From assembly GCF_000950575.1 (NCBI RefSeq), contig NZ_CP011005.1:3531719-3595718 (forward strand): a DNA stretch of 64,000 bases. Reading direction: 5' to 3'. Positions 17,770 through 64,000 of the stretch are shown in pieces (within the stretch, counting starts at the first letter, position 1; each line of letters opens with the position of its first letter). Made by a program: the position numbers and the translations under genes. The notes below the pieces were generated by a model. That model was given only the letters and a program-made list of their open reading frames with translations. It searched no databases and was not told the origin of the DNA. This DNA is from Psychromicrobium lacuslunae. Its GTDB lineage: Bacteria; Actinomycetota; Actinomycetes; Actinomycetales; Micrococcaceae.

Positions 17770-18630
17770 ATGAGCATTCAGTCCACTATTTATTCGCTAC
17801 TGCCCAGCTTGCCGCCAGCGGCTCGCCGGATTGGCGAACTGATAGTCGCCGAACCTGCTGTGGTGCTGCAGAGTACGATCTCCGAGTTGGCAAAGCGCTG
17901 CCAGACCTCGGACCCCTCGGTCGTCCGGTTCTGTCGAACCCTCGGCTTCACCGGTTACGTCCAGTTACGACTGGCGCTCGCCACCGAGATCGGACGTGAG
18001 ATTGCTGCGGAGCCGAACGCGCCTCAATTCGGTGAAGATATCAGCCCGGCCGATTCGCTCGGTGACTCGGTGGAAAAGTTGCGATTCACCGAGGTGATGG
18101 CGATTGAGGAAACCCTTAAGGCTCTAGACCTCGAGCAGCTCAATACCGCAGCCGAACGAATCGACGGATCCAGTCGGGTGTTGCTCTATGGGGTGGGTGC
18201 CGGGGCCGTGGTGGCCGAGGACTTCGCCTATAAATTGTCCCGAATTGGACGGATTGCCCAGCGCTTCGCAGATTTACACGGGGCACTGATGGCGGCGGCG
18301 CTAGCTCGCCCGGGCGACGTCGCGGTGCTGTTTTCGCACTCCGGCCAAACCCCGGAGATCATGCAGTTTCTCCGAGCCGTGAAACAACGCGGAGTGAAAA
18401 CCATTGCGGTGAGCAATGTGCGGCAGTCGGCGCTTGCGAAAGAAGCCGACCACTGCCTGCTCACCATGGTGCGCGAGACCGAGTTCCGGGCGGGTGCGAT
18501 GGCCTCCAGAATTGCTCAACTGGCTATTGTCGACTGCCTCTTCGTCGCAGTGGCACAACGAAGCTACCAGCCGACGGTGACCGCGCTGGAACTCACCCGA
18601 CAAGCAATTGAGCAACAGCTCGCGCGGTGA
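17770..18630 (+). CDS. RpiR/MurR-family repressor next to murQ
   Basis: This 286-residue protein combines an RpiR helix-turn-helix (TISELAKRCQTSDPSVVRFC, residues about 35-57) with a SIS domain (FSHSGQTPEIMQF). Divergent pairing with murQ matches MurR of Enterobacteria, which senses MurNAc-6-P. It is a close paralogue of the regulator at 2820. Its last 38 bp overlap the convergent nagZ 3' end. It probably binds the TGTAA palindromes upstream and near 13.93 kb. Confidence 0.92.
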   Translation: MSIQSTIYSLLPSLPPAARRIGELIVAEPAVVLQSTISELAKRCQTSDPSVVRFCRTLGFTGYVQLRLALATEIGREIAAEPNAPQFGEDISPADSLGDSVEKLRFTEVMAIEETLKALDLEQLNTAAERIDGSSRVLLYGVGAGAVVAEDFAYKLSRIGRIAQRFADLHGALMAAALARPGDVAVLFSHSGQTPEIMQFLRAVKQRGVKTIAVSNVRQSALAKEADHCLLTMVRETEFRAGAMASRIAQLAIVDCLFVAVAQRSYQPTVTALELTRQAIEQQLAR

Positions 18631-20113
18631 CTCGCGATGAATCGAAGCAACTCAGGGTGGTGGGCACCGGGTCTTCCGAAGGTGCCAGGCCCGCGTTGAT
18701 GCACACTAACTCTGGAAGCTCAGCAGCCAGCTCGTTGAGCAGGCTCAGCTGGCTACCCCCTGCAATCAACGAATCCACCAGCACCACCACCGCTTGCTCG
18801 GCATTGGGTTGCTTCAGTGCTTTCAATTCTTCGAGGCTGCGCAGCCGCACCGGACGAAACTCGCTCAGTGCAGCAGAGAAAAAATTCCCCAGTTTGCCGG
18901 TGGCAAGATTATGTCCGCCACGCAGATCGCAGAACTGAACCTCGCCAGCAAGGAGTCGAGGAGTCTGATCGCGATTGCTCCGCAGCGCAGTGCTGACCCG
19001 GCTCGGCCAGTCGATCAAGCCCGAAGCCGACTGCTCAACGGTCGGCCGTTTGGCTTGTTGCCCTTCACTCCAGTCGAGAAACTCGCTAATCCTCCGCTGG
19101 GCGCGATAAAACAACTCAATCGGTAGTTCGCCCTCAGCCAGCGCAAGCAATAGTGACTGGAAAACTTCCTGATACTCCTGCTTATCGGATCGGCTGCCCG
19201 GATTGGCAGGATTGCCAAGGCAGAGCAGATCGGCGCCCGCGAGCATGGCGAGGACCGCGCCCCGGCCGCTGCCGACGGTAGCCTTGATGGCGGCCATATC
19301 GAGGGCGTCGGTGATCTGTAAGCCGTCAAAACCGAAGCTGCGTAGCAGCTCACCGGCGGCCGGGTTGAGCGTGGCGGGTGTCTCAGCCTCCTCGTCGCCG
19401 AGGCCAGGCACCACGATGTGCGCTGTCATCACTGCCCGGACCCCGCTCTCGACCGTGGCTCGCATCGGCGGGAGGTGCTGAGAGCTGAGTTCTTCGAAGC
19501 TCATCTCAAGGCGCGGCAGGGCAAGATGCGAGTCGGTCACCGTGTCGCCATGGCCGGGAAAATGCTTGGCGCAAGCACCCACGCCGAGTGATTGGATGCC
19601 GCGCAGCATCGCGCTGCTGTGCCTGCTGACCAAGTCGGTGTCTGAGCCGAAAGAACGGATGCCGATCACCGGATTCGCCGGATTGGTATTGACATCAGCC
19701 ACCGGCGCCAGATTGAGATTGATCCCGGCGTCCAGGCAGAGCTGGCCGAGATGGCGACCGGCGGCTTCAGTGAGTGCCAAGTCGTTGAGTTGGCCGAGGA
19801 CCGCAGCACCGGGTAATGAGGAACCGTTTTTGGCTTCCAGCCGGCTAACGCTGCCGCCTTCTTCGTCCACGCCGATAATAGCTCGCGGGTTGGCGGCGCG
19901 AATCTCGGCGGAGAGCGCGCTGAGTTGCTGCGGATCATCCGGGTCGACATTCTGCCGGAAGTAAACCACCCCGGCTAGGCCCTCCTGCAGCGCAGTGCGG
20001 AGCCAGTCAGGCAGTGTACGACCATTGAACCCGGGCCAAATCACCGAGTTGACTAATCGCTTGAGTTCTTCCGGAGTCGCCGATCCTGTCGTCGCGAGCT
20101 GTGTATCAACCAT
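18593..20113 (-). CDS. nagZ: Beta-N-acetylhexosaminidase NagZ (GH3)
   Basis: This 506-residue enzyme removes GlcNAc from GlcNAc-MurNAc (anhydro or reduced) muropeptides. The GH3 NagZ signature KHFPGHGDTVTDSH contains the family's Asp-His acid/base loop, and ITDALDM holds the nucleophile Asp. The start at 20113 (MVDTQLATTG) is preferred to a GTG 42 bp upstream that adds a low-quality extension. No signal peptide is seen. The C-terminal 150 residues form an extra domain typical of longer actinobacterial NagZ proteins. Confidence 0.93.
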   Translation of the reverse strand: MVDTQLATTGSATPEELKRLVNSVIWPGFNGRTLPDWLRTALQEGLAGVVYFRQNVDPDDPQQLSALSAEIRAANPRAIIGVDEEGGSVSRLEAKNGSSLPGAAVLGQLNDLALTEAAGRHLGQLCLDAGINLNLAPVADVNTNPANPVIGIRSFGSDTDLVSRHSSAMLRGIQSLGVGACAKHFPGHGDTVTDSHLALPRLEMSFEELSSQHLPPMRATVESGVRAVMTAHIVVPGLGDEEAETPATLNPAAGELLRSFGFDGLQITDALDMAAIKATVGSGRGAVLAMLAGADLLCLGNPANPGSRSDKQEYQEVFQSLLLALAEGELPIELFYRAQRRISEFLDWSEGQQAKRPTVEQSASGLIDWPSRVSTALRSNRDQTPRLLAGEVQFCDLRGGHNLATGKLGNFFSAALSEFRPVRLRSLEELKALKQPNAEQAVVVLVDSLIAGGSQLSLLNELAAELPELVCINAGLAPSEDPVPTTLSCFDSSRVTARAVAQLLVG

Positions 20114-48072: not shown

Positions 48073-48771
48073 ATGGCCGGAATAACACTGAACGGTAGAG
48101 AAGTTGCGCCGATAATGCCCGAGGCTGGGCAGGTCGTCGAGGTCCGCGGTTCAACTTGGGCAGTGTCCAACGTCCAGGTCCAGGGTCTCCCGCGCAGTCC
48201 CGCTGACGAATCGGTCGCACAGCTCAGCCATGTTGTCGACCTTCAGTCGCTCGATGAGGGTAGCCTCGGTGCTCAACTCAGCGTGGTGTGGGAACTTGAA
48301 GTCGGACAGACTGTCACCCCAGCGCAGGGGCTCCCCGATTTGATTCACGCGGATAGCTTCGACGAGCCGGAGACATTGGCCGGGTTCATCGACGCAATGC
48401 GGTGGGGCGCGGTAACGAGTGCCGATCCTAATCGTTATCAAGCCCCGTTCTGGTCGGGTGTGAACGTCGAGGCGTACCAGCTGGAGCCGCTCCGCCGGGC
48501 TCTCGGTGCGCCACGTGCCAATCTGTTACTTGCTGATGATGTCGGCCTAGGTAAGACGATCGAGGCCGGGCTGGTCATTCAGGAGTTGTTACTTCGTCAT
48601 CGCGCCAGGACCGCCGTAGTCGTCTGCCCACCGAGCCTGTCGCTGAAGTGGCGGGACGAGATGCGGGAGAAGTTCGGCCTGGAGTTCACCATAGTGAACT
48701 CCGAGCTGATGGCTGAGGTCCGCCGCACGCACGGACTCCAGGCAAATCCCTTCCAGATCTTCCCCGCGTGA
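48073..48771 (+). pseudogene. drmD: drmD fragment 1: N-terminus of DISARM SNF2-like helicase
   Basis: The first 232 residues of the class 1 DISARM SNF2-family protein DrmD are open. They include an N-terminal domain and ATPase motif I (LLADDVGLGKTIEAGLVIQE) plus motif Ia (VVVCPPSLSLKWRDEM). The frame stops at 48771 just after NPFQIFP. The homologous continuation RVIVSMAWLPQ lies in the next frame, explained by one missing C in the CCCC run at 48762-48765. DrmD is normally one chain of roughly a thousand residues and is required with DrmA-C for restriction of phage. Confidence 0.88.
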
Positions 48772-50174
48772 TCGTCAGTATGGCGTGGTTACCGCAGATG
48801 CGTGCCCAGCGTCTGCTGCGTGACGTATATTCACAGGCGAGTAACCCAAAAACGGGTAGCCGGTATGCTTTTGACATCCTGGTAGTCGACGAAGCACATC
48901 ACGTTGCACCGTCTAGCCCGTCGACCCTGGCGGGCGGTCGTGGCTATGCTGTTGATACGCAGCGAACCATCGCGGTGCGTCAGCTTGCTGAGAAGTGTGA
49001 GCATCGGCTCTTCCTGAGCGCGACTCCGCACAACGGGCACCCCGAATCGTTCACCGCGTTGCTGGAGATGATCGACCCGCGGCGCTTCGCTCGAGGCGCG
49101 CAGCTCGACTCCACTGCGTTGAAGGACGTGACCGTCCGTCGCCTGAAGACAGACTTGACGAACAAGGGCTTCAAGCGACGCAAGGTGAACACGATCTTGT
49201 TCGATCCGTCGAGCGACGAACAGCAGATGTTTGGCCTGCTTGACGCAATCGTCACCAAAAGCGCGAAGCTCAACGGTACGAAGCCCTCAGGTGACATCGT
49301 CACGCTGTTGCTGAAGAAGCGCTTCCTGTCCAGCCCGTACGCGTTCGGTGTGACGTTGCGCAACTACTTGTCGTCCAAGGCGGGACGCGGCCTATCAGAT
49401 GACGAATACGACGACATCTTCGGCGAGGGCCAAGCAGACGAAGAAGAGGGCCTTTGGGAGCAAGTGGAGTCAGAGCGGCTGCGTGAGTCGAAGAGCTCCG
49501 ACCCCCTCGTCGGTGCCGACCCTGGTCAGCTGGAAAAGCTGGCGAGCTGGGGCCTCGAATACGAGGGCCGCGCCGACTCTCGGGTTGAAAAGCTCATTGG
49601 CTTTCTTGATGCGATATGTCGCCCCGACCGTAAGAACTGGTTGAATGAGCGTGTCGTAGTCTTCACCGAGTACGCGGACACCGTCGAATGGCTCGCTCGT
49701 GTGCTGAGGCAGAAGGGCTATACCGATGATCGTCTTGCGGTAATCCAGGGCTCTACCACGCCAGAGGATCGCGAATTCATCCGATCGCAATTTACTGCTG
49801 ACCCATCGAAGGAGCCGGTGCGAGTTCTGCTCGCCACCGATGCGGCGGGCGAGGGCATTGACCTTCAGACCTACTGTCACCGCTTAGTGAACTTCGACAT
49901 TCCGTTCAACCCGTCGCGTCTGGAGCAACGCATTGGTCGGATCGACCGGTACGGGCAGACCGAGGAGCCTCAGGTCTATCATTTCGTACCCGATCGTGAC
50001 TCCTCTACCTATGGCTCAGATTTGCGGTTCATGGAGATCATCGCCCGCAAGATTTCCCAGGTGGAATATGACCTCGGATCGGCCAATCAAGTGGTGGGGA
50101 GGAAATCCAAAGGCACTTCGGCAAGAGCGCCAGTGCCACGCGTAAGTCGGCGGGAGTCGACACCAATGCGGTGA
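48768..50174 (+). pseudogene. drmD: drmD fragment 2: helicase core
   Basis: These 468 residues continue the SNF2 core: DEAH box (VVDEAHHVAP), motif III (LFLSATPHNGHPESF), then the C-terminal helicase lobe with VLLATDAAGEGIDLQT and LEQRIGRIDRYGQ. The GTGA overlap with fragment 1 looks like coupling, but conserved sequence crosses the junction in two frames, so it is a frameshift. The frame is lost again at the GGGG run 50096-50099: one added G restores VVGEEIQRHFGKSASATRK into fragment 3. Residues after 441 here are therefore out of frame. Confidence 0.88.
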
Positions 50175-51235
50175 TCAACCAGGCGCTCGCAGGTGGCATT
50201 GAACTCAACGCCCGACTTACGCAGTTGGAGCAGGGGTACGACGCCTCCCGGGCTGAATTGCATCTCGAAGCGGCAAACTTGCGTCGTGTCGTCGATACTG
50301 CGCTACGTATTAACCACCAGTCTCCGCTTGCGCCAAACTACGATTTTGCGCAGGATACCGAAGCCGAAGTGTTTGAGGTTCCGACTTTGACCGCAGGTTG
50401 GCGGGACACGCTGCGTGGCCTCGACACCCGCCTGAACCCGGGTGAGTTACGTCCAATCACGTTCGATCCGGATGCGGCAGATGGGCGTGCTGATCTCGTC
50501 TATGTGCACCTCGGGCACCCGATCGTGCAAAAGGCGCAGCGGCTGCTGCGCCGATCGTTGTGGAGCGTGGACTCGACGCTACGACGGGTGAGCGCCGTCG
50601 TAGTGGAAGATCTCGAAGAGTCGTTTGTTGCTGCTGTCACCCGGATGGTCCTCGTCGGTCGTGGCGGTGTCCGCCTGCACGAGGAAGTGTTTCTTGTCGG
50701 AGTGCGCCTGCGTGGCCGCCGAGCGATGGCGGAGGAACGCGCCGAGGAAGCGCTCGACATTGCCCTCGATGGTGAGAAACTCGTTCTCGCTGATGTGCGG
50801 GTGCGCGATCAGCTCGCCAATATCTGGAACGTCCCCGATGCCCCGCTTCGCCAGAGCCTCGAAACTGCGATGCGCGATCGGGCAGGGCGCAAGCAGACTC
50901 AAGTGACAGACCAGCTCCATCGTCGCGAGGCCGCCGATGTTCAGCGAGCACAAGAGATCTTCGCTGCGTTCCGCACGAACCTCCGTGATTCCCTAACCAG
51001 CCTCCGTGCTCAGGAAGCCGAAGCTCAGGGACAGCTCTTCACTGACCCAGATCAGGAACGCCAGCAGCGGCGTGACCGCGAGGCCATGCAACGCCGACTC
51101 GATGAACTCGACGATGAAGAAGCACGCGAGATCTCCGCCATCAAAGATAGGTACGCCGACGTGAAACCCCACACAACCGCCGCTGCCGTGGTCTTTGCAC
51201 TCACCCGTTCCGACGCAGATGGGTGGCGCGACTGA
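50171..51235 (+). pseudogene. drmD: drmD fragment 3: C-terminal region
   Basis: These 354 residues form the C-terminal part of DrmD, opening with VINQALAGGIELNARL. They end in a charged coiled-coil-like stretch (about residues 245-330, rich in Arg, Glu and Gln, with DRERQQRRDREAMQRRLDEL-type sequence). The true upstream frame extends to about 50100. The stop overlaps the drmMI start (TGATG), so the methylase may still be expressed from the same transcript, although ribosomes must re-initiate after the upstream frameshifts. Confidence 0.82.
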
Positions 51236-54200
51236 TGGCGCGCCGACCTGCCCGCAATCGCCCAGCACGGAGCGCCGCCGAGTTGCACCGTGCCTGGCTC
51301 GAACTCGTCGATACTGAGGGGCCGTTTCTGGCCATCCCGCCGCTCAAACGCGTCTGGCCGGAGGGCATGCCTCGGCTTGCTGACGCTCGTAAGGCCATCC
51401 TCGCCGATGCGCGCAAAGACTTTGAGCCTGCCTGGGAGCACTATGACCGAGGTTCTGACTCTGAATCCGTCCTTGACAGCTACCGAACGGCACGTGATAA
51501 GTGGGTAGAGACCGTTCTGCGGGACGTCGCAGGCTGGGCCGAATCACTTAGCTGGGGAGAGGTCTCTGGAGTCGCAGCCCAGTCGCCGAATCGAGCGGTC
51601 ACAGTCCAAGCACAGGCCACCGTCAGCCGAGACGATGAGATCGGCGCGATCGTGCATGTCATCGACCCGGTCGACTCACTGCGCGAGGTGCCGGGTGACC
51701 TGTGGGCCGCTACTCCTGTCGACCGCGTCGAGGCGATGCTGCGCGAGAGTAAGGTACCGATCGGCATCGTCACGGACGGTCGTTGGTGGGGGGTAGTACA
51801 CGCACGTGACGGAGTGATGGCCGCCTCCGGCATCGTCGATGCCCTCACTTGGACTGAAGAACATCGCACTCGTGATGCCTTTCTCGCCCTGATTGGGAGG
51901 CAATACCTGATCGGAGGCGACCCAGCCGAGCGCCTTCCGGTGTTATTCGAGGACTCGGTCGCCGCCGCCGAAGAGATTACTGAGGCGCTGGGTGCCCAGG
52001 TGCGCCGCGCGGTCGAGCTGCTCATCCAATCATTCTCCGAGTCCGCTGCCGAGGCGAAGCGCCGAAGCCTAGCCGTCCCGCTCCCGACTCGTTCGCATGA
52101 CAGTTACGAGGCCGCAGTCACCGTGATGATGCGCGCCGTGTTCCTGCTATTTGCCGAAGAGCGTGGACTGATGCCGCAGGGCGGACTGTTCGACCAGGGA
52201 TACGGGATCGCCGGCGAACTCGATCAGCTGACCGCCCGCGAGTCTGCGGAGAGCGAAGAAGCCCTCGACGCTACCTCGCTTAGCTGGCACCGCCTGCTGG
52301 CAACCAGCAATGCGTTGTACCGGGGTGCGACATTCGAGAATCTTCGGATTCCCGCCTATGGTGGCTCTCTCTTCGATCCGGCACGGTTTCCATTCCTCAC
52401 GGCCACGAACGAACTAGGCGTCCTTGGTTTGACCGTCTCTGATCGGGTCATGTTGCATGTGCTCCGCGCCGTGCAAGTCGCTGAGATCAAAGGCGAGGCG
52501 CGCCGCATCTCGTTCCGTGACATCGACGTCGAACAAATCGGCTACATGTACGAGGGGCTTCTCGGTTACACCGCGACGGTCGCGCCCGAGATGGTCCTCG
52601 GCATTACCGGTACCCGCGGTGATGAGCCTGAGATTCCGCTCGCTAAGCTGGAGGAACTCGCTGCGACTCACAGTGACAGCAAGCAGTTGGCCAGGGCGAT
52701 CCGTGCTTGGATCGAGACCGATCAGCCTTCAGCGAAGCCGTCCTCTGAGGCCGCTATAGCTAAGGCTGTCGGTGTAAACGTCGCGCCCAGCGTGGTGAGC
52801 GCCCTCGTCCAGGCCGTTGGCGGCGACCTCGAACTTGCTGAGCGTGTAAAGCCCTGGCTTGGTCTGGTGCGACTCGACCTGCGTAACCGACCCTTCGTCG
52901 TGCTCGAAGGTGCGTTGCTAGTCAAGGAAACTCCTTCCCGCAAGAACTCGGGGGCGCACTACACGCCGAAGTCGCTTGCCGAAGACGTGGTGAAGCACGC
53001 TCTCGAACCCCTCGTCTACGCACCCGGACCACATCAGACCGCGAACCGTGATGAGTGGAAACTCAAGTCGCCGGCCGACATCCTCAACCTCAAGGTCGCC
53101 GACATAGCTTGCGGTTCGGGTGCATTCCTGGTTGCTGCTGCGCGCTTCCTCGCAGACCGACTCGTCGAGGCATGGGTCACCGACAACCCGGCGTGGGGCG
53201 GCCGTAAGGACTTGCACACGCTCGCCATGCGTGAGGTCGTCGCTACCTGCCTGTACGGCGCAGATATCAATGAGATGGCGATCGAGATGTGCAAGCTCTC
53301 ACTCTGGCTCGTTTCCCTCGACCGTGACCTGCCGTTTTCCTTTGTCGATGACAAGGTCTTTGTCGGCAATTCGCTCCTCGGGCTCACCGACATCAAGCAG
53401 CTACGCGCCATGCACATCGACCCGACCAAGGAAAGTCGGCAGCAGGGCATGCTCGATGTCTTCGAGGTCGACGTTGATTCGATCATCAAACGTGCTGTCG
53501 AGCTGCGGGAGAGCCTCGCCTCCCCGGTCGAGTCGGACGATAGCCCAGCGCGCTCGGCTGCGGCCAAGCGGCGACAGCTCGCGCAGCTTCACAATGTCAC
53601 CGCGGATCTTCGCAAGCTTGCCGACGGAATTATCGCCACCGGGCTTTCGCTTGGCGGCAAACCCGGCCGTGCCCTCGATGCCGCCTATGAAGACCTGCGG
53701 GAGGCGGCTCGCAAGGCGTTTCCGGGTGCGCATGACGATGTAGCCGACTCGGCTTGGCTTGACTCGAAGATCAGCCTGGGGCTCACACCGACGGTCGACA
53801 CAGACTACGTGCAGTGGCAGCCGCTTCATTGGATCATCGAGGCGGCCGACGTGATGGCGGATCACGGTGGTTTCGACGCGATCATCGGCAATCCGCCATT
53901 CCTTGGGGGGCAAAAGCTCACCGGTGCAATGGGAACCAATATGCGCGATTGGTTCGTGAATGTGCTTGCGGATGGTCGACGCGGCAGCGCGGACCTTGTC
54001 GCCTACTTCTTCTTGCGTGCGACCTCACTTTTGCAGGCAAAGGGGACGCTTGGGTTGATTGCGACGAATACGGTCGCTCAGGGTGATTCTCGTGAGGTTG
54101 GTTTGGATTCGATGGTGTCTGACGGGTTCACGATTACGAGGGCTGTTCAGTCGCGTTCGTGGCCGGCGTCAAGTGCGAATTTAGAGTATGCCGCAGTCTG

Positions 54201-55284
54201 GGGCACTCGCGAGGTTGTCGAGGAAGATGTTCCGCGTATTGCCGACGATATTGCGGTCAGACGGATCAGCACACTGCTCGAAGCACAAGGACGTACAGCG
54301 GGAAACCCGTTTCGGCTGGCAGAGAATGCGGGCATCGCTTTCCAAGGCTGCATCGTTTTGGGGATGGGTTTCGTACTGGAGCCGGAAGAGGCGCAAGAGT
54401 GGATTGCCGCTGATACCCGCAACGCTGAGGTACTGTTTCCATACCTCAACGGCGAGGATCTAAATCAGCGTCCCGACAGCTCGGCATCGAGGTGGGTCAT
54501 CGACTTCAACGACCGAACCGAGGAACAGGCGCGCAAGTACCCACGGCCGTTCGAGCGAGTGTCCGAACTCGTGAGGCCCGAGCGGATGCACAACAGACGT
54601 AAGCCTCGACGCGATTACTGGTGGCAGTTCGCCGAACGAGCGGCCGGGATGAGAAAAGCGATCTCAGACTTGTCGGAGGTTTTGGTCCTCGCTCAAGTCA
54701 GCAATACTGCACAACCCATGTTCATTCCGAAAGGAATTGTGCCGAGCCACAAGATCGTAGTGTTCGCATCGGACAACCGTGGATTGATGGCGGTGTTGTC
54801 ATCATCCCTTCATTATTTCTGGGCTCGCAAGTATTCGGGGGCGATGAAGAATGATCTGAGCTACTCCCCATCTGACGTGTTTCTCACGTTCCCACGGCCC
54901 AAAATGACCAAGCGATTGCTCCAAGCAGGCTCTGCGCTTGATAGGGAACGTCGCGAAATCATGGCTCGCCGAAGTCTCGGGCTTACCAAGCTCTACAACC
55001 TTGTCAATACGCCCGAAGCGGGCAGCGACGTAGATGTATCCCGAGTCCGCGATCTTCACGTTGAGATCGACGAAGCGCTAATCGAGGCATATGGATGGGA
55101 TATCCACCCTCGCTATGGTTTCCACACCTACAGACGAGTTCTGCGGTGGAGTTTCGATGCCGCAAGTCGCGTTGATTTGCTCGACAAACTCCTCGAGGAG
55201 AATCGTACGAGAGCAGAGTCTTCGCCAGTGACTGGACACATAGAATCTATTTACGAGTTCGCCGAAGCCACATTGTTTGGATGA
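51235..55284 (+). CDS. drmMI: DISARM class 1 adenine-specific DNA methyltransferase DrmMI, expressed allele
   Basis: This 1349-residue type IIL/PglX-like methyltransferase marks host DNA for the DISARM system. Catalytic motif I is VADIACGSGAFLVAAARF near residue 620 and motif IV is FDAIIGNPPFLGG near 885, the NPPF form of N6-adenine enzymes. The ATG at 51235 overlaps the drmD stop; an in-frame GTG at 51223 would add four residues. Residues 1-925 are constant, 926-1015 are encoded by a 270-bp inverted repeat, and 1016-1349 form the target-recognition region that has an alternative copy on the opposite strand at 55302-56597. The frame is fully intact, unlike the restriction genes around it. Confidence 0.92.
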   Translation: MARRPARNRPARSAAELHRAWLELVDTEGPFLAIPPLKRVWPEGMPRLADARKAILADARKDFEPAWEHYDRGSDSESVLDSYRTARDKWVETVLRDVAGWAESLSWGEVSGVAAQSPNRAVTVQAQATVSRDDEIGAIVHVIDPVDSLREVPGDLWAATPVDRVEAMLRESKVPIGIVTDGRWWGVVHARDGVMAASGIVDALTWTEEHRTRDAFLALIGRQYLIGGDPAERLPVLFEDSVAAAEEITEALGAQVRRAVELLIQSFSESAAEAKRRSLAVPLPTRSHDSYEAAVTVMMRAVFLLFAEERGLMPQGGLFDQGYGIAGELDQLTARESAESEEALDATSLSWHRLLATSNALYRGATFENLRIPAYGGSLFDPARFPFLTATNELGVLGLTVSDRVMLHVLRAVQVAEIKGEARRISFRDIDVEQIGYMYEGLLGYTATVAPEMVLGITGTRGDEPEIPLAKLEELAATHSDSKQLARAIRAWIETDQPSAKPSSEAAIAKAVGVNVAPSVVSALVQAVGGDLELAERVKPWLGLVRLDLRNRPFVVLEGALLVKETPSRKNSGAHYTPKSLAEDVVKHALEPLVYAPGPHQTANRDEWKLKSPADILNLKVADIACGSGAFLVAAARFLADRLVEAWVTDNPAWGGRKDLHTLAMREVVATCLYGADINEMAIEMCKLSLWLVSLDRDLPFSFVDDKVFVGNSLLGLTDIKQLRAMHIDPTKESRQQGMLDVFEVDVDSIIKRAVELRESLASPVESDDSPARSAAAKRRQLAQLHNVTADLRKLADGIIATGLSLGGKPGRALDAAYEDLREAARKAFPGAHDDVADSAWLDSKISLGLTPTVDTDYVQWQPLHWIIEAADVMADHGGFDAIIGNPPFLGGQKLTGAMGTNMRDWFVNVLADGRRGSADLVAYFFLRATSLLQAKGTLGLIATNTVAQGDSREVGLDSMVSDGFTITRAVQSRSWPASSANLEYAAVWGTREVVEEDVPRIADDIAVRRISTLLEAQGRTAGNPFRLAENAGIAFQGCIVLGMGFVLEPEEAQEWIAADTRNAEVLFPYLNGEDLNQRPDSSASRWVIDFNDRTEEQARKYPRPFERVSELVRPERMHNRRKPRRDYWWQFAERAAGMRKAISDLSEVLVLAQVSNTAQPMFIPKGIVPSHKIVVFASDNRGLMAVLSSSLHYFWARKYSGAMKNDLSYSPSDVFLTFPRPKMTKRLLQAGSALDRERREIMARRSLGLTKLYNLVNTPEAGSDVDVSRVRDLHVEIDEALIEAYGWDIHPRYGFHTYRRVLRWSFDAASRVDLLDKLLEENRTRAESSPVTGHIESIYEFAEATLFG
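54012..54281 (+). repeat. Inverted repeat IR1-left, inside drmMI
   Basis: This 270-bp segment is identical, base for base, to the reverse complement of 56329-56598. It begins CTTGCGTGCGACCTCACTTT and ends ACACTGCTCGA. It encodes the junction between the catalytic part and target-recognition region of DrmMI. Third-position usage (many GGT, GAT, TCT, TTG) is unlike the C-ending flanking codons. Confidence 0.97.
54028..54043. other. Quasi-palindrome in IR1-left, candidate crossover site
   Basis: CTTTTGC-AG-GCAAAGG has near-symmetric 7-bp arms around a central AG dinucleotide, the style of serine recombinase cores. The mirror copy is at 56567-56582 in IR1-right. This is suggestive only; any point in the 270-bp repeat could be the crossover. 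Confidence 0.25.
54359..54530 (+). repeat. Second inverted repeat IR2-left in the target-recognition region
   Basis: This segment of 172 bp matches the reverse complement of 56080-56251 with a single difference (GCT versus TCT, Ala to Ser). It lies 77 bp beyond IR1, as does its partner, so recombination here would also keep frame. Confidence 0.93.
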
Positions 55285-55301
55285 GCGATCGAGAAGATTG
55301 A

Positions 55302-56597
55302 TCAGCCAAGTGGCATTGCTTCAGCATCGGCTGTCCCGCTGAGCGTGCTGGCGGGCGCCAGTTGATTTTGCATGCGTCGATGGTTCTCTTCAAGAAGTAA
55401 ATCCAGCAGCTCAACTCGGTTGGAAGCACCGACTGTCCAGCGTTGCATTTTTCGCACGGTGTAAAAGCTGTGGTCGAGTTCTATGCCTCGCCAGCCAAAT
55501 GCTTCGAGTACCGCCGCGTCGACTTCAACGTGGAGGTTTCTAAGGTGACCCACGTCCTCCGCACCCGTGACTGCAGGATCAGCAACGAGGTTGTAGACGT
55601 CGGTCAAGCCGATGCCACGACGCGCCATCAACTCTCGCTGTCCGTTTTCCAACGCACGACCGGCAGCCTCAAGACGCTCTGTCCGCTGGGGCAAAGGAAA
55701 CGTTAGGAACGCATCGGACGGTGAGTAGTTCACCCGAGTTTCGAGCGTCGAACTGTAAGTGATTGCCCAGAGCCAGTGCAGCGACGACGAGAGGACGGCC
55801 TGATCCGCAAACGAATCCGTGGCGTAAACGCCTAACCGATGGCTGAAGACCTGGTTCGTTGACACCCTTAGCGGCATGACGCTCTTACTGACAAGAGCGA
55901 TGACCAACACCTCCGACAAGTCTGCGATCGCTTTACGCATAGCTGGGCGTTTTTCGCCGTACTGCCACCACCGCTCAGGTAAAGGCTTTCGGAGAGCGTA
56001 TTCACCGTTCGACTTCCGACGCTGCCTTTCAGGCTTCACCCGTTCGACCAAGCGGTGGTAAGGCAATTTGTAGGTAGCAGCCTGTTCCTCGGTTCGGTCG
56101 TTGAAGTCGATGACCCACCTCGATGCCGAGCTGTCGGGACGCTGATTTAGATCCTCGCCGTTGAGGTATGGAAACAGTACCTCAGCGTTGCGGGTATCAG
56201 AGGCAATCCACTCTTGCGCCTCTTCCGGCTCCAGTACGAAACCCATCCCCAGGACGTAACATCCAATGAAAGCCAAACCAGAGTTCTCGGCCAGTCGGGC
56301 AGGCATTCCATCGACTCGACCGGCTGGCTCGAGCAGTGTGCTGATCCGTCTGACCGCAATATCGTCGGCAATACGCGGAACATCTTCCTCGACAACCTCG
56401 CGAGTGCCCCAGACTGCGGCATACTCTAAATTCGCACTTGACGCCGGCCACGAACGCGACTGAACAGCCCTCGTAATCGTGAACCCGTCAGACACCATCG
56501 AATCCAAACCAACCTCACGAGAATCACCCTGAGCGACCGTATTCGTCGCAATCAACCCAAGCGTCCCCTTTGCCTGCAAAAGTGAGGTCGCACGCAA
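55302..56597 (-). CDS. Silent alternative C-terminal cassette of DrmMI
   Basis: This 431-codon open frame on the minus strand corresponds to residues 926 to the end of DrmMI. It lacks the catalytic domain, a normal start (first usable codon is TTG at 56597) and any upstream promoter, so it is a storage copy rather than a gene. After the shared repeat it diverges (AGRVDGMPARLAENSG versus AQGRTAGNPFRLAENAG), is again near-identical across IR2, then differs through the recognition part. The ends remain homologous (ELMARRGIGLTDVYNLV versus EIMARRSLGLTKLYNLV). It stops 17 bp from the expressed allele's stop, tail to tail. No frameshifts, implying selection on the silent copy. Confidence 0.88.
   Translation of the reverse strand: MRATSLLQAKGTLGLIATNTVAQGDSREVGLDSMVSDGFTITRAVQSRSWPASSANLEYAAVWGTREVVEEDVPRIADDIAVRRISTLLEPAGRVDGMPARLAENSGLAFIGCYVLGMGFVLEPEEAQEWIASDTRNAEVLFPYLNGEDLNQRPDSSASRWVIDFNDRTEEQAATYKLPYHRLVERVKPERQRRKSNGEYALRKPLPERWWQYGEKRPAMRKAIADLSEVLVIALVSKSVMPLRVSTNQVFSHRLGVYATDSFADQAVLSSSLHWLWAITYSSTLETRVNYSPSDAFLTFPLPQRTERLEAAGRALENGQRELMARRGIGLTDVYNLVADPAVTGAEDVGHLRNLHVEVDAAVLEAFGWRGIELDHSFYTVRKMQRWTVGASNRVELLDLLLEENHRRMQNQLAPASTLSGTADAEAMPLG
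56080..56251 (-). repeat. Second inverted repeat IR2-right in the silent cassette
   Basis: This is the partner of 54359-54530, 171 of 172 positions identical in inverted orientation. The high identity inside otherwise diverged cassettes points to gene conversion or past crossover. Confidence 0.93.
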
Positions 56598-56598
56598 G
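56329..56598 (-). repeat. Inverted repeat IR1-right, start of the silent cassette
   Basis: This is the exact inverted copy of 54012-54281. Its outer end lies 24 bp before the recombinase ATG. Any promoter for the recombinase is therefore likely to lie within this repeat or in the invertible segment. Confidence 0.97.
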
Positions 56599-57900: not shown

Positions 57901-57946
57901 CGTACCCTAACCGTCAATCAAGGTGTTGTGCGGCAGAATAGTGGCT

Positions 57947-60856
57947 ATGTCAGAGAAGATGGACGCGGCAGCGCCAGCGGAGCCGGGATATCCACTCGAT
58001 TTCCCACTGGATGGCACCTCTTTCAGTGTGCGCGAGAACCTAGCCGACATTCTGGAGCGTGAACTTCTCGGACCGATCTATGGGGAGAACGAGTTACTAT
58101 CAATCAGCCCGAAGCAGCTGTATCTCGTCGGCTTGATTGCGCCGGTGAAACTTACTGACACAAAATCATCCACGCTCGATCAGGATGAGGCGGGCGACTT
58201 GGATGAGGTTCGCCTCGACGAGGATGGCGTCGCCGAGGGCCGCGGCGTTCCCGCGGTTGCCGCAGACGAGAGCGAAGCTGATGCCGAGGAAGACGATGGT
58301 GAGGATCGCGCGCCCAAGCAGGGGCTGATGATCCCAGCGTCGATGGGCCTGCGCTTCCAGGTGTCAGAGGATCTTCCGTCGTTCGAAGTCACGGCGTCGT
58401 GGGGCAGCTACGAGACGGTTGAAACAGGCGAAATGAAACCGAATGGCCGGCCGGAACGGAAATATCGGCGCACTCCGGTGGAGGAGACCCGAACCATAGC
58501 GATAGCGTCGCTGAAACCGGGGCACACCGAGACAATCGTGCTGCGCGATGCCATTTGTCTGCGGATTGACCGCTACGACGACCACGAATACGGGCGCGTC
58601 CTCGTGGAGATCGCACTTTGTAATGACCGCGAGACGCCACTGCCGATCCCGACCAGTATGTGGATGTTTCAGACGAAGCTGCTGATTGACTCGGGTGGCG
58701 ACGAGGTGTTCCTCCCGGTGCGCGATGTCCTGGAGCAAGACTGGGCTGAGCATGATGACGAGGTTCGCCGGCTCGATCTGCAGTACAAAGATCGGCTGGA
58801 ATTTGCCATCGGTCGTACCTGCTCTGCTGATTGGGTTGTGCGGAAAGGATCGCGTCGGGCAACCTCGGTATCCACGAGCTGGCTGCCATATGCGGAGACG
58901 CCTCAGACCCGGGCTGGCGTCGTGGAGGGCGCGACTTTATCGATGAAGGAGCTCGCATCAGCCTCCGCCGAGGAGCTGCGGGATGGTCTCACGCCACTGA
59001 TCTCCGGTTATGGTGCGTGGCTCGAACGACAGCGAGGCAATGCAGCGGAGCTCCCCGCACACCTACGTGAGACCGCCGATGATGCGTTGTGGGAGGCACA
59101 GCGGGCGTATCAACGGCTGGTCGACGGTCTAGAGTTCGTGGCGACGGATGCGACCGCTCTGCAGTGCTTCCAGTTCATGAACCGCGTGATGCGCGATCAG
59201 CGTCTCGCTTCCCAAGTCGCCGAGGTGCGCAAGTCTGACTCATCGTTGTCGATTATCCAGGCGTGGAAGGACCTTGAGGCCGCCGAGCTGGACGGAGAAC
59301 CGGTCGCATCTTGGCGGCCATTCCAGTTAGCTTTCATCCTTATGCAGCTCCGCGCGCTCACCAACCCGACAGATCCATTGCGAAGCGCGGACCTCAAGGC
59401 TGGCGTAGAGCTGCTTTTCTTCCCGACTGGCGGTGGCAAGACTGAGGCATACCTCGGCCTTGCCGCATACACCTTCGCGATTCGTCGGCGTCAGGCTGTC
59501 GTGCAATCCCAAGACGGCGCGTTGAACGGTGGCGATGGCGTCTCGGTGCTGATGCGCTATACGCTGCGGCTACTCACCGCGCAGCAGTTCCAGCGCGCCA
59601 CCACACTCGTGTGCGCCGCTGAACTGGCGCGCCTTGAAGACGAGGCAACGTGGGGTGTGGAACCTTTCCGGATTGGTCTGTGGGTCGGTACCGATGTCAG
59701 CCCGAAGCGATTCGAAGAGGCGGATGAACAGCTCAAGAAAGTCAACGATGGAGCTTCGCACCGACTTACCGTGCTTCAGATTCAGCGTTGCCCATGGTGT
59801 GGTACCGAGATTAGTCCGGCGAACGTTAAGGGCGACGTCACGAGTCGCCGCGTGTTGGTGCACTGTGGTGACGAATTGGGTCGCTGCCCGTTCTCTAAAG
59901 GTGGCGGTGTACCCGAAGGGCTCCCGGTGCTCACTGTCGATGAAGAGATCTATCGGCTCGCCCCGGCATTCGTTATCGCGACCGTTGATAAGTTCGCTCG
60001 GCTCGCGCGCGAAGGCGAGGCCGCGTCGCTGTTCGGCTACGTTAGTAAGCGGTGCGGTCGGCACGGCTACATCCATCCCGACTACACGAACTGCGATGTC
60101 CAGGCGCATCCTGCGAACGGTGGGCACCCAGCGGCCACCGTGGTGCCGGTTGACCGACTGCGTCCACCGGATCTGATCATTCAAGATGAGCTGCACCTGA
60201 TCACTGGCGCACTGGGTACCGCCGTCGGACTGTTTGAGGTCGCCCTCGAAACGCTGTGTTCATGGGAAACTCCAGCGGGTGAGGCGATCAAGCCGCTAAT
60301 TGTCGCCTCCACTGCGACCGTGCGGAACGCCGTGGATCAGGTGCGGCAGCTGTACGGTCGCAAAGTCGAGGTCTTCCCGCCACAGGTGCTCGACGTGGCA
60401 GATACCTTCTTCTCCCGCGAGGTCGAGGTTTCTCAACAGAATCCTGGCCGTCGCTACCTCGGGGTGAGCGCGCCCGGTGTGCGTTTGTCTAGCGCCGAGA
60501 TTCGCCTCACCGAGATCCTGCTGCTAGCGGGGCAACTGCTGTTCGACCGCACCGGTATCGAGGCCGACCCTTATATGACACTTGTCGGCTATTTCAATGC
60601 CACCCGTGAATTGGCAGGTATGCGCCGCTACGTAGATGACGACGTAACCAGCCGAGTACGCAGCCCCCGTCCGAAGTCCGGATTTCCGAGAAGGTTCGGC
60701 ACCAACTTCGGTCTCAACGTTGCTGAACTGACTTCTCGTATTTCAGGTGCTGATATTGGCAGGACCCTCGACAAGCTCGGGATTGAGTTTGACCCTGACT
60801 TCGATGTCACCACGGCGATCAATGCCCGGGGGCTGCTGCCAAGGCTAAGGAGGTAG
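57947..60856 (+). pseudogene. drmA: drmA 5' part: DISARM helicase DrmA
   Basis: These 969 residues form most of DrmA, a core DISARM helicase-like protein. They include an acidic linker (about 75-125), Walker A LFFPTGGGKTEAYLG near 500, a CPWCGTEI zinc-type knuckle and the DEXH box IIQDELHLITG near 745 followed by VASTATVRNAV. The ATG at 57947 is used although an in-frame GTG lies 24 bp upstream. The frame ends prematurely after TTAINARG. One missing G in the GGGGG run at 60828-60832 accounts for it, since the other frame continues AAAKAKEVVPKRDGDEPFD. Confidence 0.9.
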
Positions 60857-61658
60857 TGCCGAAGCGTGACGGAGACGAGCCGTTCGACGTGGTGCTCGCG
60901 ACTTCGATGCTCCAGGTTGGTGTCGATGTGCAGCGACTTGGATTGATGCTTGTGGTGGGACAACCGAAGAACACCGCCGAGTACATCCAGGCATCCTCTC
61001 GCGTCGGCCGCGATAGGAACCGACCCGGGCTAGTCGTCTCTCTAGGCAATTGGGCCCGTCCGCGTGACCTTGCCCACTATGAACAGTTCCGGCACTACCA
61101 TGAGACGTTTTACAAACAAGTCGAGGCTTTGTCTGTCACGCCGTTCTCGCCGACTTCATTGGAACGTGGCATCGACGGATTGCTCGTTAGCGCGGTTCGT
61201 GTTGTCCAAGCGGCGAGAACGGACAGTCTTTCGCCGAGAAGCAGGCAGGGAAGATAGAGGCAGAGTACTCGGCCGTCACCGCGTTGGTGGAGCGGTTGAA
61301 TGCGCGCATTCTCGCCGCATCACCGGATGAGAGTCGAGCCAAGGAGGCCCGTGACAATTTCAAAAATCGAGTGGATAAGTGGTGTCGCCGCGTCAAACAA
61401 GCCGCTGGACTGCAGAAAATATTGGTCTATGAGCGTACCCGGGATGATAAGAGATATTTACCGTTGATCGTCAGCCCAGAAAATTACCAAGCACAAGCCG
61501 GTAGCCCGGTAGAGGCTCCGTTCAGGATCGCGAACTCAATGCGGGAGGTACAGCCGGAAATCAACATTCTGGTGTCGCCGATCGAGGAGAGGCTTTATGC
61601 GAGCCCGAGGGCGGACATCGAAGGCTGGGCACTACCCCTTGGGGAGGACGAAGAATGA
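60857..61658 (+). pseudogene. drmA: drmA 3' part: C-terminal helicase lobe, twice frameshifted
   Basis: This continues DrmA in two open pieces. The first (to 61257) has the helicase motifs VVLATSMLQVGVDVQRLGLM and QASSRVGRDRNRPGLVVSLG. At GG 61212-61213 a single missing base shifts the frame; correction gives NGQSFAEKQAGKIEAEYS, leading into the second piece (61284-61658, NARILAASPDESRAKEARDN). That piece ends in an acidic tail whose stop overlaps the drmB ATG (61655). Reading the whole as one gene, DrmA would be about 1235 residues. Confidence 0.85.
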
Positions 61659-62845
61659 CCGACCAAGTCACCGGGGTGTTACCGAGCGCAACGGATTCTC
61701 TTGACCCACTTGGCGATGTCGAGAAAGGCAAATCGAAGAATCGTGCCAAGGTCGGATCGGCTCGGCCGTCTTCATTGTTGTATACCTACGGCCCTGGTTC
61801 GATTATGGACTTGCCGAGCTTTTCAGTGATGCCAGCTGGGCTCGATGATTGGGAGTCGATCTGGAAACGCCGTGAAGAAATCGATCGGATATTCGAACCA
61901 CGACTGCTGAACGTCGTTCGTAAATATCGCGGTAATCAAGTCAGAGAGTTACGACCTTTCCCTTGGCAGCCGAAGAAAGGCCCGACATCGACGGAAGGAT
62001 CCGACCTCGGGGTCCCTGCGCGAGTGTTTCCGCAGTGGCTGCGCTGTACCCACTGCCATTACCTTGGCCCATTGTCGCGCTTCGATTACAAGAACACCCA
62101 TCCGTTTCGACCCGACCTCGCGCAGTTCACCCACAAGTGTGCGGCCAGCGGTAAAAGGGGCGGCTGGCCAGCAGTGCCGGCTCAGCACTTGCTCACCTGC
62201 ACCAATGGGCACCTTGACGAATTCCCTTACACGCTGTGGGTGCACCGTGGGAAGAAATGCCCAAATACTGAGCGCGAACCGGACTTGAAGATGTTTGATG
62301 CCAACGTCGGCAAAAGCGTTGGGTCCAGCATCAAATGCCAAGCCTGTGATGCTCGCCGCGGCATGGCGGAGGCGATGGGAGCAGCCGGACGAGAAAAAGA
62401 TCCCGCAAGTCTGTCGCGGGCGTCATCCGCATCTGGGCGAGTTCTTCCAGGGTGCGAAGCGAAACCTGCGCTGATCATGATGGGTGCCTCAAACCTTTGG
62501 TTTCCGGTAACCCAGAGCATTATCGTCATGCCGAGATCGGATGCGGAGCAGAAGGAAGTGCTTGCCGACCGACTACGTGTCGAACTCAATGTCGATGACC
62601 TAAGGACGTTTGGTGATCAGATCCCGGTTATCCGTGCGCTCGCCGGAGCACGCAACATCGACGTCACCGAGCTTGACGACGAGGATATTGCGACGATTGT
62701 TGCGAAGGCCCTCGTCCCTCCAACTGCCGAAGAAGCCTCGGAAGATAGCCATGCGGGCCGGGACCCGATCGAGTTGCTGGTCCTGAGTGGTTATATCTCC
62801 AGCAGCCCATTTCATTTCCCGAGCAGCAGGACAGCGCAGGATTGA
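61655..62845 (+). pseudogene. drmB: drmB 5' part: DUF1998-type DISARM protein DrmB
   Basis: DrmB is the second core DISARM protein, which acts with DrmA. The 396-residue frame begins with RPSSLLYTYGPGSIMDLP and contains zinc-type cysteines (WLRCTHCHYLG, LLTCTNGHLDEFPY, IKCQACDAR) and the conserved GASNLWFPVTQS. Two local shifts cancel: an extra A in 62394-62398 and a lost G near 62450 replace about 18 residues, including IPQVCRGRHPHLGEFF, with unrelated sequence. A lost C at 62782-62783 then ends the frame early; the correct continuation is VPEWLYLQQPISFPEQQ. Confidence 0.85.
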
Positions 62846-63679
62846 TGGTCACAGAGATGCCACGCGGAAGGGAATTGAATCCCCTGATTAACCGCGTCGT
62901 CGGCGTGAATAAGATGAAGAAGGCCAATGCTGTTCTCGGCTTCACTCGCCTCGACGAGATGGACCGCATTAGCGATCTCCCTCGCGCGTCGTACCTCTTA
63001 CCCGCAGTAACAGGCCAACCTGGGTGCCGGCCACGGAAGACCGAGGCGAGGGCATTTTTCTGGCAACTCGACCTCGACGCCGTCGACGAATGGGAACGCA
63101 GAATCGACGATCAGCCCATATCGCTCTGGACAGCGCATAAAGAAGCGCATCGCCGCAACTTTGCGCGCCGCTTCTCCGAGACCGCCGCCGAGATAGAGCC
63201 GATGACCGGCTGCCTGATCCGCGGTATTGGCTGCTTCATACCTTTTCGCACATCCTGATTCGAGAGATGGCGATGCGCTCGGGCTATGGTGCCGCCAGTC
63301 TGACCGAACGTATTTACGCCTGGAAGGCTACTCCGGAACGCGAGGCAGCTGCTGGCCTGCTGATCTGCACGACTGCATCGGATAGCGATGGAACGCTCGG
63401 CGGTCTCGTTGCGCTCTCCGAGCCGGATAAGCTTCAAGGTATCGTCCGCGCCGCGTTACGCAGAGCCGCAAGATGTTCCTCAGACCCGATGTGCGCACAA
63501 CGCACGCCGTCGGACCCGGAGGATTTCCTCCCGGTGCGGCGTGCCACACTTGCTGCTTCGTCTCAGAGACTTCGTGTGAGAAGGCTAATCGGTTCCTCGA
63601 CCGCCGCTTTATCCTCGACCTTCCGGCCCAGAACCGTTTCACTGCGCCCGGGTTCTTCGGAAGCATCTATGGCCACTGA
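62842..63679 (+). pseudogene. drmB: drmB 3' part, twice more frameshifted
   Basis: The C-terminal half of DrmB begins in frame 62842-63258 with MPRGRELNPLINRVVGVNKM. It should continue PRYWLLHTFSHILIREMAMR, but a missing G at 63208-63209 shifts the frame. The next open piece (from 63267, SGYGAASLTERIYAW) holds the DUF1998 region with CSSDPMCAQ. Another lost base near 63530-63534 separates it from GAACHTCCFVSETSCE, the terminal cysteine cluster, which ends at the stop 63677-63679. The stop overlaps the drmC start. Confidence 0.82.
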
Positions 63680-64000
63680 CTCCGATCCGTTTGTTGAACT
63701 CGGCAGCTTCCTAAACGCGCGACCGAGGCGGCACGCCTTGCCCTGCAGTTCGAGATAGGCGCGCCACTCAGTGTCGCCATACGTGAGATAGCGAGTGCTC
63801 GTCGCGAGCAGGCAAAGTTGCTACTAATAGCAGCGGGTCTCACACCTCGGGATTGTGGGCGGGCCGTCAGTGTGCTGCGCGCGTTGCTGGAGCGAAGTCC
63901 GTGCTCCGAGACGTGACTCCCGTATGGACGATGCCCGGCCACGAGGCGAACACGGGTCGACTCACCGCAGAGTTTCATCGGATCGTCGGAGAAGCACGCC
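63669..64000 (+). pseudogene. drmC: drmC (phospholipase D-like DISARM protein), 5' part, cut by window end
   Basis: The ATG at 63669 overlaps the drmB stop, the expected place for drmC. MATDSDPFVELGSFL is followed, after a lost base around 63712-63720, by ATEAARLALQFEIGAPL in another frame. A second lost base near 63892 precedes AKSVLRDVTPVWTMPGHE. The catalytic HKD motifs would lie beyond the window, so the PLD assignment rests on operon position and N-terminal resemblance. Confidence 0.68.

Follow-up and report, generated by a model that had tools for sequence, protein, structure and literature searches.

What question is raised by a DISARM operon whose methyltransferase gene, drmMI, is followed by an inverted, silent copy of its own 3′ part and then by a serine recombinase gene? 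This arrangement is found in the actinobacterium Psychromicrobium lacuslunae, within the stretch of DNA analyzed here (the window), which is the final 64,000 bases of contig C1 (3,595,718 bp). For one chromosomal gene of this host, the closest named matches come from Psychromicrobium and Arthrobacter-type species (family Micrococcaceae). A preliminary description of the window had proposed that the silent cassette inverts across an exact 270-bp inverted repeat and thus changes the specificity of the methyltransferase. We found that the cassette occurs in both orientations in one genome assembly. Its inversion very probably swaps the predicted target-recognition half of DrmMI. The enzyme likely to be responsible is the neighboring serine recombinase, for which short target sites within the gene are predicted.

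When the genome was searched with DrmMI, four matching regions appeared where two were expected. The start of the contig (C1:1-21202) overlaps the last 21,205 bases (window 42796-64000) at 99.8-99.9%, and the overlap reaches exactly both contig ends, which is an indication that a circular chromosome was left untrimmed. Genes of this part of the window are consequently counted twice in the assembly. Outside the cassette, the two copies differ by small insertions or deletions (indels) and one substitution. The DISARM operon at the other contig end, however, has the cassette inverted, and the two otherwise matching ends are therefore read as the consensus of opposite states of the same DNA.

The point of crossover can be placed through the structure of the arms (table 1). 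The 270-bp repeat, which was reproduced in the window sequence, belongs to an arm pair of 570 bp with 90% complementarity. From the outside to the inside, the arms are composed of the exact 270 bp, a diverged patch (patch 1), 50 exact bp, one mismatch (54409), 121 exact bp, and divergent sequence. When the segment of the window was flipped at the inner 50-bp site, it showed no difference from the other copy (0/2587) and an identical protein of 1,357 amino acids (aa), whereas the protein expected from a flip at the outer repeat of 270 bp disagrees with the assembled alternative form in 10 residues. Patch 1 stayed with the expressed gene and the mismatch at 54409 moved, which places the crossover between these two, within the repeat of 50 exact bp. 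The outer repeat is ruled out as the crossover of the event seen since patch 1 was not flipped, but it may still serve as a candidate outer site (site 0). In other words, the inversion foreseen by the preliminary description is borne out, the cassette being assembled in opposite orientations at the two overlapping contig ends, but the placement of the crossover in the 270-bp repeat is not. Other sequence features of that description were recovered: the reading frame is open in both states (1,357 vs. 1,349 aa from ATG at present), both arms encode homologous but diverged recognition regions, and a serine recombinase gene adjoins the right repeat. As in site-specific inversion systems, inverted sites (the 50-bp exact tract with an 18-bp conserved core) bound the segment and both orientations occur.

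Short sites were also indicated by codon usage. Shared synonymous codons were scanned in 22 rows (expressed and silent copies) from 11 recombinase-bearing loci, and 200 codon shuffles were run for comparison. The strongest window (54391-54408, GCG CAA GAG TGG ATT GCC) showed 0.96 shared codons versus 0.48 expected, that is, an excess of 0.481 compared with 0.249 for the best window among the 200 shuffles. This 18-mer (GCGCAAGAGTGGATTGCC, site A) sits inside the crossover tract and is the probable recombinase core. In genes without a recombinase, the windows around site A rank 702-983 of 1,135. Other peaks above every shuffle were located at 54412-54429, which adjoins A, at 54685-54702 (site B), and at 54022-54039 (site 0). 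Another candidate, TTGTCATC (about 54790-54807), was weak (excess of 0.178) and was dropped in favor of B.

The 18-mer is exact in nine of the 12 expressed genes that cover it (the window, L001-L006, L012, and L070; the L numbers denote compared loci), one base off in L015, and reduced to a 12-base core in L060. It is also exact in eight of the nine covering silent arms, with the core alone in that of L060. None of 13 recombinase-less loci contained the site A core. Within its own genome, the 18-mer is confined to the two arms, each of which appears twice because of the overlap, and no related gene was found on two viral contigs that carry it.

The silent cassettes of 14 recombinase-bearing loci tend to end at the same sites on the side of the recombinase. 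The end is at site 0 in seven of them (the window, L001, L003, L009, L012, L068, and L070), at A in L002 and L015, and at B in L004. In L006 the end is an A-left/B-right junction and in L069 a 0-left/B-right junction, whereas L005 has an assembly gap at this position. A 0-left/B-right junction is also located in the expressed drmMI of a Pseudoclavibacter metagenome bin (L009:12790-12815), out of frame and with the full silent half kept, and possibly constitutes an OFF state. Such hybrid junctions would be the expected remnants of crossing between unlike sites. As many as three sites are probably present in the element.

DrmMI has MmeI as its best solved match, both by sequence and by fold (structure model of 78 rows, mean pLDDT 86.5; an earlier model of 23 rows, mean pLDDT 61.2, was not used). 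Both drmMI halves, expressed and silent, showed the MmeI target-recognition domain (TRD) and its fold. In MmeI numbering, the alleles differ at the pair 806/808, which sets one base in MmeI and reads K-D in one allele versus E-R in the other; the residue pairs 751/773 and 806/808 co-vary as expected for MmeI specificity pairs. This difference leads to the prediction of a changed methylation target, in which the base read by the 806/808 pair would change, G versus C by the MmeI rule. Patch 1 surrounds the residues aligned to the position-2 contacts 642/645 of MmeI, both of which are the same in the two arms.

In the proposed mechanism, the recombinase would bring together the two inverted copies of site A, one in drmMI and one in the silent cassette, and flip about 1.8 kb. 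In this way, the constant part of DrmMI (to about residue 1058) would be joined to either of two MmeI-type recognition domains, and a clone would become a mixture of cells with different self-marks. A phage that leaves one cell type with the modification of that type would then encounter sister cells for which this mark is foreign. The action of the recombinase, the frequency of switching, the change in methylation, and the difference in phage protection are what we infer from this arrangement. In relatives, the extra sites 0 and B may let parts of the recognition domain be re-assorted. A wider proposal, to which we give an even chance, is that actinobacterial DISARM bears a dedicated in-gene shufflon. 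A single subfamily of serine recombinases would use as many as three sites (0, A, and B), embedded in the drmMI frame at the joints between base-reading modules. In MmeI numbering, the part between 0 and A would correspond to the position-2 contact loop, that between A and B to the position-1 contacts, and that from B to the end, the most variable one, to positions 3, 4, and 6. With nested swaps, two gene halves could yield up to eight TRD combinations, in addition to OFF forms out of frame such as the possible one of L009, and phages would face a clone with a spread of self-marks.

The recombinase and the inverted cassette are also linked in relatives. In one genome collection (25 loci, of which L007, L014, L020, and L025 are truncated or too distant), an inverted partial drmMI was found in 9/9 recombinase-bearing loci versus 0/12 readable recombinase-less loci. 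Four recombinase matches found later (71-75% identity) are all located in DISARM operons with an inverted drmMI piece. In L007, the drmMI match runs as far as residue 973 and in L014 as far as residue 932; both break off where the contig ends, within or next to the outer repeat, as happens when a repeat breaks a contig. The tree of the constant DrmMI part needs four changes of the recombinase label, at least three of which are forced by supported branches, indicating repeated gain or loss of the element.

Of 7,995 candidates scored, 808 belong to the recombinase family at E 1e-60. Counted per genome, own genome included, the recombinase is rare, with matches in 2/395 genomes of the family (E 1e-80), 3/396 of the order, 4/394 of the class, and 1/396 of the phylum (E 1e-100). 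The other match in the family is 45% identical, and the other two in the order are 71% (with DISARM) and 51%; the 4-kb loci of the matches at 45% and 51% contained no DISARM gene. At the DNA level, the plasmid search gave one record, which lacks the recombinase.

Three other explanations were considered. Flipping of the cassette might result from gene conversion or ordinary homologous recombination by RecA acting on the repeats, with the recombinase as an unrelated passenger. Long exact repeats (270 and 121 bp) are indeed available for such a process, and the outer 270 bp are identical in both states, as conversion would leave them. However, the tract that took the crossover is the shortest of the exact ones, which makes up 50 of 441 bp and would be hit by chance in 11% of cases, and the exact match at A is only 41 bp in L002 and 46 bp in L015. 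Moreover, the recombinase and the inverted cassette occur together, and the cassette ends at the same short sites in 12 of the 14 loci (L005 has the gap and L060 does not fit), which makes this route improbable. Still less credible is an origin of the second orientation from an assembly artefact or a true second copy, instead of from an inversion within the population, even though indels are elevated at the contig ends where both copies are located and the evidence comes from the assembly only. An overlap exactly to both ends is what an untrimmed circle gives and is unexpected for a duplication, and a collapsed repeat should switch at the longest repeat and not at the 50-bp tract. The preliminary description had named an assembly duplication of the repeat as grounds for rejecting its view, and these two findings speak against it. 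The flipped segment fits without a single difference, and relatives share the architecture with diverged arms. As for the role of the switch, control of host genes (a phasevarion) or lower autoimmunity, rather than varied phage protection, seems a rather unlikely main purpose, though less so than either alternative above. A changed methyltransferase target would re-mark the whole genome, and DISARM reportedly can restrict phages without its methylation target sequences (according to a portion of PMC9142583). On the other hand, the methyltransferase is placed within an intact defense operon and not alone, and both uses are compatible.

Several points weigh against inversion by the recombinase at short in-gene sites. 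The two states in one assembly could reflect a single rare event. An inversion at site A leaves the exact 270-bp outer repeat unexplained, for which a second site, conversion, or homologous recombination is needed. When the expressed genes are taken alone, site A ranks only 7-8 of 1,247 windows, the top window being 51724-51747, and the codon shuffles take no account of relatedness. Site B is degenerate in the window, L069 is without site A, and the silent arm of L060 begins between sites 0 and A. The MmeI rule is carried across about 16-18% identity only. Finally, distant relatives of the recombinase (45-67% identical; L050, L054-L057, and L059) showed no DISARM gene in the stretches examined, thus the wider recombinase family is not tied to DISARM. 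Among them, the recombinases of the viral contigs L054-L057 (65-67% identical) had no DISARM match in these stretches and no exact inverted repeat of at least 16 bp within 5 kb, and a connection with phages or viruses was set aside.

Inversion of specificity genes is known from type I systems and suspected for pglX of BREX. The DISARM cassette differs from the type 1 BREX loci in which pglX is accompanied by a recombinase and a second, partial copy; BREX is a different defense system with different effector genes, and DrmMI scored 35 bits with NCBIfam BREX_1_MTaseX, for which the cut-off is 500. In addition, two orientations are here present in one assembly and the crossover tract is mapped. 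In the hsdS shufflon, the recognition domain belongs to a separate HsdS subunit, whereas the domain exchanged here belongs to the drmMI ORF (open reading frame) itself, as the C-terminal part of a single-chain methyltransferase swapped at in-gene sites. The MmeI-family type IIL enzymes share with DrmMI the TRD fold, the determinant positions, and the co-varying residue pairs, but MmeI combines restriction and modification in one chain, of 919 aa in the solved entry, and DrmMI is longer and stands beside DrmABCD. To our knowledge, there is no inversion cassette in MmeI. Recombinase-less class 1 DISARM operons (for example, Streptomyces L011, L019, and L024; the Nocardioides JS614 plasmid) retain the order drmD, drmMI, drmA, and drmB, but they have no such recombinase beside drmMI, no inverted drmMI piece, and no site A core.

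As regards the literature, parts of the respective articles describe inversion among hsdS specificity genes that alters DNA methylation in Streptococcus pneumoniae (PMC4948785), mention pglX duplication or phase variation (PMC11842806), ascribe pglX phase variation to a homopolymeric tract (PMC6326788), and report a full and a partial PglX around an integrase in L. rhamnosus (PMC7513527). An invertible DISARM was not found in our searches of the open-licence literature of PubMed Central, nor in the available portions of PMC9142583, PMC7365801, PMC9716671, PMC12707154, PMC11842806, and PMC12926258, although an earlier mention in the founding DISARM or BREX papers stays possible; in PMC11868660 the word DISARM does not occur. 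We consider the element a real and new DISARM variant of the known specificity-switching inversion systems.

If this holds true, specificity switching, known in type I systems and suspected in BREX, extends to a further and different defense system, and recombination sites are hidden in coding sequence, where gene annotation would miss them. If the recognition halves switch, sister cells would differ in the DNA sequences that they mark as self. A strain that swaps the recognition domain of DrmMI in an otherwise constant operon would be a natural experiment on self/non-self recognition in DISARM and on the contribution of the methyltransferase.

The gene order of the operon is that of class 1 DISARM, that is, drmD, drmMI, the inverted silent drmMI 3′ cassette, the serine recombinase, drmA, drmB, and drmC (table 1).

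Table 1. Features of the invertible DISARM locus (window coordinates)
Feature	Position	Strand	Remarks
drmD, SNF2-like helicase	48073..51235	+	in the window, three frames through single-base indels near 48762 and 50096
drmMI, expressed allele	51223..55284	+	methyltransferase with MmeI-like target-recognition domain
Outer inverted repeat, exact 270 bp, left arm	54012..54281	+	
Site 0, candidate outer site, left	54015..54026	+	GCGTGCGACCTC; in the window and six relatives, the silent arm ends here on the side of the recombinase
Diverged patch 1, left	54282..54358	+	unmoved in the inversion seen
50-bp exact crossover tract, left	54359..54408	+	last unflipped mismatch 54358, first flipped mismatch 54409
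Site A, probable recombinase core, left	54391..54408	+	GCGCAAGAGTGGATTGCC; codon-conservation peak
121-bp exact inverted tract	54410-54530 / 56080-56200		
Site B, candidate inner site, left	54682..54704	+	TTGGTCATCGCNCNTGTCAGCAA; 2 mismatches
Silent drmMI 3′ cassette, alternative target-recognition domain	55302..56597	-	ORF, PADLOC, Pfam
Site B, right	55885-55907		1 mismatch
Site A, right	56202..56219	-	
50-bp exact crossover tract, right	56202..56251	-	
Diverged patch 1, right	56252..56328	-	
Outer inverted repeat, exact 270 bp, right arm	56329..56598	-	
Site 0, right	56584-56595		
Serine recombinase, 425 aa	56623..57900	+	Pfam PF00239 Resolvase 5e-34, PF07508 Recombinase 1e-10
drmA, helicase	57923..61658	+	PADLOC DrmA; window copy broken by indels near 60828 and 61234
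drmB	61655..63679	+	window copy broken by indels
drmC start, PLD-type	63669..64000	+	gene truncated at the contig end; full length in the other copy (L048)

The expressed drmMI product has 1,349 aa from ATG 51235 or 1,353 aa from GTG 51223, and was identified by PADLOC DrmMI (E=0, 1,619 bits) and Pfam MmeI_Mtase, Eco57I, and MmeI_TRD. The recombinase is of the large serine type by its domains, and its closest solved structures by sequence are serine integrases. The pieces of drmD in the window match PADLOC DrmD (7e-108, 5e-172, and 3e-87), and the other assembled copy has an intact ORF of 1,054 aa (NCBIfam DISARM_DrmD, 1,238 bits, cut-off 610). Similarly, the intact drmA encodes 1,245 aa (DISARM_DrmAS, 1,373 bits, cut-off 950), both halves of the intact DrmB (675 aa) exceed the DrmB_fam cut-off, and DrmC reaches 147 bits with DISARM_DrmC_I (cut-off 133; PADLOC DrmC 8e-91). 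The class 1 core of DrmA, DrmB, and DrmC is thus over all curated NCBIfam cut-offs in the intact copy, and the methyltransferase DrmMI and helicase DrmD of class 1 are both present (PADLOC, NCBIfam). The operon, complete in the other assembled copy, is a class 1 DISARM gene set with a predicted anti-phage role. The alternative that DISARM decayed to a lone methyltransferase, as the frame breaks in drmD, drmA, and drmB might suggest, is ruled out by the intact ORFs of the overlapping copy; these breaks, present only in the window copy, are most readily explained as sequence errors at the end of the contig.

Relative to the other copy, single-base indels of the window are located at 48762, 50096, 60828, 61234, 62394, 62447, and 62782, with some beyond 62790. 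They fall in drmD, drmA, and drmB and resemble contig-end consensus errors, and C1:1-1700 carries a separate set of indels. Among recombinase-less loci, several kilobases of other sequence lie between drmMI and drmA in L010 (7846-11607) and L023 (13934-18647). In the class 1 DISARM of the conjugative plasmid of Nocardioides JS614 (L043), an annotated IS1380 transposase (18140-19549) is placed between two drmD pieces.

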